Positions 17,265 through 18,834 of a stretch of DNA of 64,000 bases are shown here, one piece after another; the first letter of the stretch is position 1, and the number at the start of each line of letters is the position of its first letter. The stretch covers positions 1,984,001 to 2,048,000 of the forward strand of contig NZ_JPOG01000001.1 in NCBI RefSeq assembly GCF_000733765.1, written 5' to 3'. A model generated the notes under the pieces. The model was not told the DNA's origin and ran no database searches. It saw only the letters and a program-made list of their open reading frames with translations. Origin of the DNA: Algiphilus aromaticivorans DG1253. Lineage in GTDB: Bacteria > Pseudomonadota > Gammaproteobacteria > Nevskiales > Nevskiaceae. The translations under genes were made by a program, and so were the position numbers.

Positions 17265-17406
17265 TACATGCGGCGGTGGCAACCTCGGGAGAAGGGAGCA
17301 GCTTTCGCTGCGCGCAACGCCGCACGTTAGGGAATATGGTGCCTTGACTTAGGGGCGGCGTCCAGTTTTCAAGTCGCCTGTTTTCAATGGGTTACGTTTG
17401 CCAATC

Positions 17407-17438
17407 TGCCAGCTGGCAACTACTTCTGCCAGCTGGCA
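17407..17438. promoter_or_regulatory. Twin 12-bp palindromes (likely operator)
   Basis: TGCCAGCTGGCA occurs twice, at 17,407-17,418 and 17,427-17,438. Each copy is a perfect palindrome and the centres are 20 bp apart, about two helical turns, as expected for two dimers bound side by side. They lie between the leftward late genes and the rightward small-gene operon and could control either one. The binding protein is unknown. Confidence 0.7.
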
Positions 17439-17522
17439 AGAATCTTCGTCACATCGCCGCATCGCCGAGCGCATTTCCGGTAAGTGACTGCATACGAAGG
17501 AAATATTCTCGCTCTTCGTCTC

Positions 17523-17551
17523 TTGACCCTAACCTCGTTAGGGCGTATAGT
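17523..17551 (+). promoter_or_regulatory. Strong rightward promoter with embedded operator
   Basis: TTGACC at 17,523-17,528 and TATAGT at 17,546-17,551 are 17 bases apart, close to the sigma-70 consensus. The spacer holds a perfect inverted repeat, CCCTAAC, three bases, GTTAGGG (17,527-17,543). A protein bound there would block polymerase. It drives the four genes at 17,621-18,834, the last two of which encode HTH proteins that could bind it. A half site GTTAGGG occurs again at 17,326. Confidence 0.8.
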
Positions 17552-17620
17552 AGGAACCGTGGATAGGGAAACGGCCTACCACCCCATTCCCCGGGACCGG
17601 GGAGCAACTGGAGAAACAAC

Positions 17621-17962
17621 ATGGCAAACGTTCAAGCAGCAGTTCAGCAGATCCGCGACATCGCCGACCAGATCGATCGCATCGTGCCTCACGAGAGGGA
17701 TTCGAGCAGTCGGTTTGTCGAGAGCGAAATCCGCGAGACCGCCGAGTACACCCGCTACGTCGCCGACTGCATCGCCACGTGGGATGGTCGCCATATTGAC
17801 GAGGTAGGCCGGCAGGGCACTGGGGTCCTCGACTACAACGCGATGAAATTCGATATCGCGCAGTTCAAATTCGGATTCCCGGTTACCGATATCGCCGACG
17901 CTCTGATCAGTGAAATGGAGGCGGAGGCCGATGCTGCCGATGCCAGCAACGGAGACCGCTGA
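17621..17962 (+). CDS. Small acidic protein, first gene of an acr-aca-like operon
   Basis: A 113-residue acidic protein with helical predictions (VQAAVQQIRDIADQIDRIV, then RETAEYTRYVADCIATW) and an acidic Ala-rich C-terminus. It begins about 70 bases downstream of the strong promoter at 17,523. No family recognised. Small acidic proteins led by a repressible promoter and followed by an HTH gene are typical of anti-CRISPR loci, but nothing in the sequence itself proves such a role. Confidence 0.75.
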   Translation: MANVQAAVQQIRDIADQIDRIVPHERDSSSRFVESEIRETAEYTRYVADCIATWDGRHIDEVGRQGTGVLDYNAMKFDIAQFKFGFPVTDIADALISEMEAEADAADASNGDR

Positions 17963-17963
17963 A

Positions 17964-18260
17964 ATGCGCACCACGATCCAACCCTACATCGAGGAGCCGG
18001 TCGAGTTGACGGCGGGCGAACTCCAGGCCGAGGAGGGGCGGCCGCTGACGGTGCATGTTCACGGCTGGGATGCCACGGCATTCGGTGGCAAGGGCGGGCT
18101 GTTTGTGGAGCTGCGCTACGCCGGCGCCTATTCCGGCCCCTACAAACGCATGGTGCCGTCTCGCGCCGAGGCTGACGAGCTGGCGTCTGAGTGGCGGGCA
18201 TCGCTCGGTAACGGTGACCAGTGCGAATGCGCGACGTGCCGGAAAACCAATCCCCACTGA
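17964..18260 (+). CDS. Small protein with C-terminal cysteine cluster
   Basis: A 98-residue protein starting one base after the previous stop. The middle is strand-rich (PLTVHVHGWDATAFGGKGG, LFVELRYAGAYSGPYK), followed by a helix (SRAEADELASEWRASLG) and a Cys cluster (CECATC) at the end that may bind zinc. Its stop codon lies inside the first CRISPR-repeat-like hairpin. No family recognised. Confidence 0.75.
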   Translation: MRTTIQPYIEEPVELTAGELQAEEGRPLTVHVHGWDATAFGGKGGLFVELRYAGAYSGPYKRMVPSRAEADELASEWRASLGNGDQCECATCRKTNPH

Positions 18261-18334
18261 GGTGGGGAAACGGGCGATAGCTCACCTCTGCAGCGAACCG
18301 TTCCACGGATCATCCCCGCCTCGGCGGGGAACAC
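18244..18334. CRISPR. Two type I-E-like CRISPR repeat mimics, 62 nt apart
   Basis: Unit 2 (18,306-18,334, 29 nt) has flank CGGATCAT, stem CCCCGC/GCGGGG with a four-base loop and end AACAC. That is the exact geometry of type I-E repeats; by eye it matches 22 of 29 bases of the E. coli K-12 repeat read on the opposite strand (recalled, not searched). Unit 1 (18,244-18,272) has stem CCCCAC/GTGGGG, the same six-pair, four-loop shape with a compensatory A-T for G-C change. The 33-nt gap equals an I-E spacer. No cas gene is in the window. Unit 1 overlaps the end of the gene before it. It could be a mini-array, an RNA anti-CRISPR or simply two hairpins. Confidence 0.55.
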
Positions 18335-18350
18335 GGAGAAACATAGCGCA

Positions 18351-18626
18351 ATGAAAACGACCCCGCAATACCAGCGCCAGCCGGTGGGCAATCACGACCC
18401 GAACAGGGTCAACGGGCTATGGAAAAAAATCCGTGCGCTCTGTGATATCGACGACCGAGACGTCGCGGACGCGCTCAACGCGCGCGGCGTTTCGATCAGC
18501 CGCTCACGCGTCGCAGCGTGGTCACGGCGCGAGGATAGCGACAAATTCTCGCCGCTTAATGTCGCCGAGCTGGAGGCAGCGCTCGACGCGCTGATCGAGG
18601 CCGACCGTGCTGACCGACCTAAGTAA
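18351..18626 (+). CDS. DUF1456 (YehS)-like HTH protein
   Basis: A 91-residue protein. Residues 22-82 align with the DUF1456 pattern known from E. coli YehS: a first helix (LWKKIRALCDI), a D-x-x-DV-x-x-ALN segment, SRSRVAAWSRRED, a Leu-rich last helix ending ALI. This fold resembles a helix-turn-helix and may bind DNA. It follows the CRISPR-like hairpins directly and overlaps the next gene. It is a candidate regulator of its own operon. Confidence 0.78.
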   Translation: MKTTPQYQRQPVGNHDPNRVNGLWKKIRALCDIDDRDVADALNARGVSISRSRVAAWSRREDSDKFSPLNVAELEAALDALIEADRADRPK

Positions 18627-18834
18627 CTGGCCACCCTCCCCCGCCCCGACCGATATACGCTCGGCGCGCGAGGCCGCGGGGCTCACCCAGGCTCAGGCCG
18701 GCGCGCTGATCTATCGCTCTCCAGAGGTGTGGGCGAGCTGGGAGCGCGGGCGGCGGCCGCTGGATCCGGCGCTGTGGGAACTGTGGCAGATGCGGGCGGA
18801 AGATCCGGGGTGGATTGCGCGGGTGTCGATTTAG
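18607..18834 (+). CDS. HTH regulator, Aca-like by position
   Basis: A 75-residue protein from a GTG overlapping the previous gene. Residues 15-62 form an XRE-type HTH: SAREAAGLTQAQAGALIY, then EVWASWERGRRPLDPALWELW. It is the last gene of the unit and probably a dimeric repressor of the palindromic promoter at 17,523. Anti-CRISPR-associated (Aca) repressors are HTH proteins of this size placed after the acr genes; the relation is by architecture and not by sequence match. It ends convergently with the leftward early genes (four-base overlap). Confidence 0.8.
   Translation: MLTDLSNWPPSPAPTDIRSAREAAGLTQAQAGALIYRSPEVWASWERGRRPLDPALWELWQMRAEDPGWIARVSI

Follow-up and report, generated by a model that had tools for sequence, protein, structure and literature searches.

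CreR is an RNA that regulates cas genes in I-B, I-E and V-A systems; it has a short guide between two degenerate repeats and limited complementarity to a cas promoter (reviewed in PMC12737573, PMC13131331 and PMC12948488). Repeat-like sequences other than the solitary phage repeats called Racrs can mediate Cas-dependent repression (PMC10651486). Among protein systems, the closest described relative of the locus reported here is the acrIC7-acrIC6-aca10 operon, whose repressor Aca10 (PDB 7XI5) recognizes a palindrome located between the promoter boxes (PMC9410881). Acr-aca operons, Racrs, acr genes with Racr neighbors and the CreR of hosts are already known. A phage-encoded CreR was not found reported in the literature, with the qualification that the source work on CreR is known to us through reviews, so that priority is uncertain. 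We suggest that the prophage locus described here is, with good probability, an acr-aca10 operon combined with a phage-encoded CreR mimic, by which host Cascade is made to repress its own cas operon.

The window analyzed is the 64-kb stretch C1:1984001-2048000 of a 3.8-Mb host genome, which was searched by pattern and by stretch; positions below are window positions unless marked C1. A tailed-phage prophage with capsid, portal, terminase, endolysin, replication and RecE genes surrounds the operon, and is itself a 61.8-kb virus entry in IMG/VR. The genes flanking the operon on both sides run leftward, and its four ORFs all run rightward. Promoter, palindrome and the four small genes lie where a first-pass annotation of this DNA had placed them (Table 1). 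The element is carried by two phages only, the second being the metagenomic phage L016 (IMGVR_UViG_3300035199_001163), which has no known host; a search of GenBank phages gave no related phage DNA. In L016 all four ORFs are present in the same order, at identities of 58% (ORF1), 60-61% (ORF2), 89% (ORF3) and 65% (ORF4).

Table 1. Features of the prophage operon and of the element antisense to it, in window positions.
Feature	Position	Strand	Basis
Sigma-70-like operon promoter, TTGACC-17-TATAGT	17523..17551	+	Consensus scan
Perfect palindrome CCCTAACCTCGTTAGGG, flanked by the -35 and -10 boxes; presumably the operator for ORF4 (Aca10-like)	17527..17543		Palindrome search
5' UTR of ORF1, with hairpin TTCCCCGGGACCGGGGA	17552..17620	+	Comparison with L016
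ORF1, 113 aa, candidate Acr, all-helical model	17621..17962	+	ORF list, structure model
ORF2, 98 aa, candidate Acr, alpha/beta model	17964..18260	+	ORF list, structure model
R1, degenerate distal repeat CGTTTCCCCACCTCAGTGGGGATTGGTTT, with T-rich tail (terminator-like)	18244..18272	-	Repeat pattern
Guide, 33 nt, TGGAACGGTTCGCTGCAGAGGTGAGCTATCGCC	18273..18305	-	Comparison with L016 and host
R2, I-E CRISPR repeat GTGTTCCCCGCCGAGGCGGGGATGATCCG	18306..18334	-	Repeat pattern, host repeat comparison
Region presumed to hold the promoter for the minus-strand RNA; weak TTGCGG-17-TATGTT at 18340-18368	18335..18416	-	Inference
ORF3, 91 aa, DUF1456	18351..18626	+	Profile match, E 2.3e-9
ORF4, 75 aa, GTG start, HTH_31, Aca10 homologue	18607..18834	+	Profile match, E 1.5e-7; PDB match

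The first-pass annotation had assigned HTH folds to the last two genes, DUF1456-like and XRE, and the profile matches are to DUF1456 and HTH_31. It had also proposed both of their products for comparison with Aca families. ORF4 matches a single PDB protein, Aca10 itself (7XI5, E 7.7e-12, residues 11-67), and ORF3 is a DUF1456 protein, whose relatives other than that of L016 reach only 24-32% identity. Further Aca10-like genes stand behind small uncharacterized genes in three phages, and Aca-like genes lacking acr genes also exist (PMC9410906). The first two genes it had called unknown. Neither ORF1 nor ORF2 falls into a Pfam or PADLOC family; they gave weak noise only with PHROGs and NCBIfam, and have no significant sequence match in the PDB. 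Their AlphaFold models, which were built from two-sequence alignments and are of low confidence (pLDDT 69 and 70, respectively), have no PDB fold match at E < 0.2. No relative of ORF1 was found beyond its own genome among 85 genomes of the same order, nor was there any match in a scan of genome contigs, and the known relatives of both proteins are those in L016. We regard ORF1 and ORF2 as candidate Acr proteins.

The operon promoter is the sole sigma-70-like site in a 3.5-kb region (0.5 on average in shuffles), and the palindrome that it encloses, CCCTAAC-CTC-GTTAGGG, has a 7-3-7 form and a single occurrence in the window. A perfect 7-bp palindrome is present in about 0.4% of shuffled 23-mers. 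The L016 promoter holds another perfect palindrome, CCTACAT-AAT-ATGTAGG, of the same form and at the same position, as one would predict if operator and repressor evolve in step. Binding of ORF4 to the palindrome would shut the operon promoter. The 5' UTR that follows is about 97% conserved in L016, whereas operator and coding sequence have diverged. Its hairpin loosely resembles the stem of the sense-strand I-E repeat, has a core that occurs in no other IMG/VR contig, and may be a second RNA element. Shortly before the operon, at 17405-17439, two exact copies of TCTGCCAGCTGGCAA lie 20 bp apart, each containing the 12-bp palindrome TGCCAGCTGGCA; no copies occur elsewhere in the window, and the two are a possible operator pair of another regulator.

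The host I-E locus is complete: its genes are cas3, cas8e, cse2, cas7, cas5, cas6e, cas1 and cas2, with a toxin-antitoxin-like pair between cas6e and cas1, and its array has 61 repeats. The cas genes are intact, and a suspected loss of cas1 and cas2 was rejected, as both are present, cas2 having been recognized by eye from its translation. In the toxin-antitoxin-like pair (C1:2849793-2850650), a small antitoxin-like gene accompanies a PIN-like toxin that has a DUF3368 domain; the two may be a CRISPR-linked addiction module. Within the array, spacers 6-9 contain CCGTGACGCAGG... and TGGCGGCTGCCG... twice in tandem, a duplication of two repeat-spacer units.

Four host spacers have perfect, AAG-flanked protospacers in the prophage, and five more match it with AAG and 1-4 mismatches; one further spacer, s33, has a perfect protospacer inside ORF1 itself (17871-17902), with the PAM CAG. 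Shuffled spacers gave no such AAG matches, and neither did 59.5 kb of other host DNA. Perfect, AAG-flanked matches of this kind lead one to expect an inhibitor, and survival of the lysogen despite its targeting spacers suggests that the I-E system is blocked or silenced, although other anti-CRISPRs or silent cas genes could also account for it. Together with the Aca10 homology of ORF4 and an operator that stays palindromic while its sequence changes in L016, these spacers make up three independent lines of support for the acr-aca interpretation that the first-pass annotation had drawn from gene arrangement.

That annotation had also noted CRISPR-like hairpins in the operon. The hairpins are real, but they have crRNA sense on the strand opposite to the operon (minus), where they make up a mini-CRISPR that appears to be aimed at a cas promoter region. 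Read in that sense, the element runs from R2 through the guide to R1. The two repeats start 62 nt apart, which is the spacing of an I-E array, and they are the only units in the 64 kb that fit a loose repeat pattern (0.03 expected). R2 is identical to the host array repeat at 25 of 29 positions, including the whole stem, and to the repeat of a CreR-like element of the host, described below, at 15/29; R1 is degenerate, with 14/29 positions shared with the array repeat. L016 has the same parts in the same order and at the same 62-nt spacing, and there the R1 stem is kept with a different loop. The 5' 17 nt of the guide (18289-18305) are identical in the two phages and the rest of the spacer has diverged. 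A scan of genome contigs for repeat plus seed gave a single match, by chance, in an SDR gene of Novosphingobium.

Little changed between prophage and L016 are also R2 and a stretch upstream of it that overlaps the start of ORF3. Across the first 22 codons of ORF3, one synonymous change is seen in the 21 codons with an unchanged residue, compared with 23 of 60 in the remainder (Fisher p 0.004). A constraint at the nucleotide level, such as a minus-strand promoter, would leave few synonymous changes here, and the pattern fits one; recombination could also have produced it, in a comparison of two sequences. The presumed minus-strand promoter, weak by consensus, is placed in this region mainly on account of the conservation. 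At the other end, a strong terminator-like hairpin, GGCCCGCCAACTTGGCGGGCC, closes the minus-strand element of L016 (L016:4875-4900), and its counterpart in the window is a T-rich tail only. Folded alone, the minus-strand RNA of the window pairs R2 with R1 (MFE -45.7) in place of two hairpins, whereas the L016 version forms two; Cas6e or co-transcriptional folding could prevent the R2-R1 pairing.

Since the R2 stem is palindromic and R2 lies directly before the ribosome-binding site of ORF3, in a strongly conserved region, the hairpins might instead act in the rightward mRNA, where binding or cutting by Cas6e next to the ORF3 start would let the operon sense Cas levels and tune its regulators accordingly. 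We think this very unlikely, because a full repeat, the 8-nt handle and the guide seed exist in crRNA sense on the minus strand only, and because a sensor leaves unexplained the match of the seed to a site at cas8e, to which we now turn.

The gap between cas3 and cas8e in the host holds a repeat, a spacer beginning with TGGAATGGTTCGCTGC (C1:2855661), a second repeat and a hairpin, an anatomy that makes the element CreR-like. A site AAG-TGGAAAGGTTCTCTG (C1:2855589) lies 69 nt before that spacer, upstream of cas8e. The 5' end of the prophage guide, TGGAACGGTTCGCTGC, agrees with the host CreR-like spacer at 15 of the first 16 nt, with a difference at position 6. Compared with the AAG-flanked host sequence at C1:2855592, the guide matches at positions 1-5, 7-11 and 13-15, the exceptions being positions 6 and 12; Cascade flips out every sixth base of the guide pairing (PMC5904413). 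The 18-nt motif AAGTGGAANGGTTCNCTG has one exact occurrence in the 3.8-Mb genome, which is the sole AAG site for the seed and is the one at cas8e. When about 128,000 33-mers of the window were compared with the region upstream of cas8e, 13 leading matches were reached by the guide alone; the next best with AAG reached 10, and the best host-array spacer 7 with any PAM. The guide copies themselves are preceded in the genome by CCG, which is no PAM but the end of the repeat, and they should on that account escape attack. We presume the AAG-flanked stretch to be the cas8e promoter; a consensus scan did not recognize the cas8e promoter itself. In their own I-E loci, two relatives of the same order (G435 and G440) have CreR-like mini-CRISPRs upstream of cas8e with other seeds, each with its own AAG-flanked near-match (the pairing in G435 was read by eye), and a third (G448) has a partial mini-CRISPR there.

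These matches bear on what the guide is for. Virus-borne mini-arrays of repeat-spacer-repeat anatomy are known (PMC6858448), and the element could by analogy be directed against rival phages for superinfection exclusion. That seems very improbable, as the first 23 nt of the guide, with every sixth base left free, match this prophage alone in IMG/VR, GenBank phages and plasmids gave chance-level matches only, and conservation is limited to the half of the guide that carries the seed, whose only AAG site in the host genome is at cas8e. Nor does the guide have a target within the prophage itself. The near-identity of the seed to the host CreR-like seed might also be the trace of a captured piece of host CreR that has no function, the anti-CRISPR work being done by ORF1 and ORF2 alone. 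We give this little credence: neither the repeat nor the flanks reproduce those of the host element, R2 being much closer to the array repeat than to the CreR-like one, and repeat, seed and upstream stretch have been conserved while ORF1 and ORF2 diverged to 58-61% identity.

A more serious competitor, still unlikely in our judgment, is a plain Racr, a repeat unit that soaks up Cas6e or Cas7 as a decoy and for which the sequence that follows is irrelevant. R2 is indeed a near-perfect I-E repeat in a prophage of an I-E host, and known Racrs adjoin acr genes, those of I-E type being inhibitory (PMC10651486). Yet a decoy needs neither the 17 nt that stay identical after the handle while the rest of the spacer diverges, nor the host CreR-like seed and the AAG target at cas8e that these nucleotides carry; moreover, a second repeat-like unit at I-E spacing has been kept in both phages. 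The sequences show the anatomy, the repeat and seed identity, the unique target, the conservation in two phages, the self-targeting and the Aca10 homology, and judged by its sequence the mini-CRISPR should work like CreR.

We infer from these features minus-strand expression and processing of the RNA, repression by it, Acr activity of ORF1 and ORF2, and binding of the palindrome by ORF4. In the model that we propose, the rightward transcript would yield the candidate Acrs, the DUF1456 protein and the Aca10-family repressor, and the minus strand would yield a small RNA, R2-guide-R1, that host Cas6e would process to a crRNA-like guide in Cascade. Through the seed shared with the host CreR-like RNA, Cascade would then settle at the AAG site, the presumed cas8e promoter, and block cas transcription. 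Cascade can bind DNA when AAG is joined by only 5 seed pairs, and interference takes more than 18 (PMC5904413). With 13 effective leading pairs, Cascade would be expected to bind without activating Cas3, leaving the chromosome undestroyed. Off-target Cascade binding in E. coli often has no effect on transcription (PMC5904413), so the position of the site at a promoter matters. The phage RNA would thus amount to an added dose of the host's CRISPR off-switch and lower cas expression; it may also occupy Cascade, as Racrs do. Cascade already made would be dealt with by the candidate Acr proteins. Acrs are reported to lift the repression by CreR, with a rise in cas expression as the result (PMC12737573, PMC13131331, PMC12948488). 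A phage CreR could offset this Acr-induced burst, provided that Cascade still binds DNA, and would act upstream of the protein Acrs.

It is likely, in our view, that the phage supplies a guide RNA in which the host CreR seed is copied and through which Cascade comes to repress the cas operon that encodes it, and that the element antisense inside the acr-aca10 operon is in this sense an RNA-guided anti-CRISPR acting at the level of transcription. Acr proteins and decoy RNAs block Cas proteins; here, if this is true, a working Cascade would be put to use as a programmable repressor of the cas genes, which would help to account for the coexistence of an intact I-E system with a prophage that holds four perfect protospacers. 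The model predicts that Acrs from such loci spare DNA binding by Cascade, for instance by blocking Cas3. More cases may be sought by a simple rule: a repeat unit in a phage, with a seed behind it that matches the cas promoter of the host.

Of the systems described previously, CreR is the most similar in plan, with I-E repeat-like units flanking one short guide (R2 and R1 at 62-nt spacing), a limited, AAG-flanked seed complementarity upstream of cas8e, and a seed that the prophage shares with the CreR-like element of its host. CreR is, however, encoded within the cas locus, whereas the prophage element lies antisense in an acr-aca operon about 0.85 Mb away, serves the phage, and has an R2 closer to the array repeat than is the repeat of the host element. 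Repression by CreR has been demonstrated in hosts other than this one. With Racrs and other solitary repeat units, of which I-E examples are known, the locus shares a phage mimic of the repeat of the host subtype beside acr-type genes (PMC10651486). A Racr traps Cas proteins with a solitary repeat; here a conserved guide seed is aimed at the region upstream of cas8e, and R2 has R1, degenerate as it is, 62 nt away. The locus is best called a variant of phage RNA anti-CRISPR: its location sets it apart from CreR, and it may not be solitary as a Racr is.

Virus-borne mini-CRISPR arrays (PMC6858448) resemble it as single-spacer arrays that lack cas genes and use the Cas proteins of the host, but the prophage guide addresses the cas8e upstream region of the host and no rival virus. 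The protein side of the locus is most like acrIC7-acrIC6-aca10 of Pseudomonas citronellolis (PMC9410881), in which two small genes likewise precede an Aca10-family regulator and a perfect palindrome lies between the promoter boxes, in a 10-1-10 form as against the 7-3-7 of the prophage operator. The prophage operon differs in that its ORF1 and ORF2 belong to no known family, in its extra DUF1456 gene, and in the mini-CRISPR that it carries on the opposite strand.
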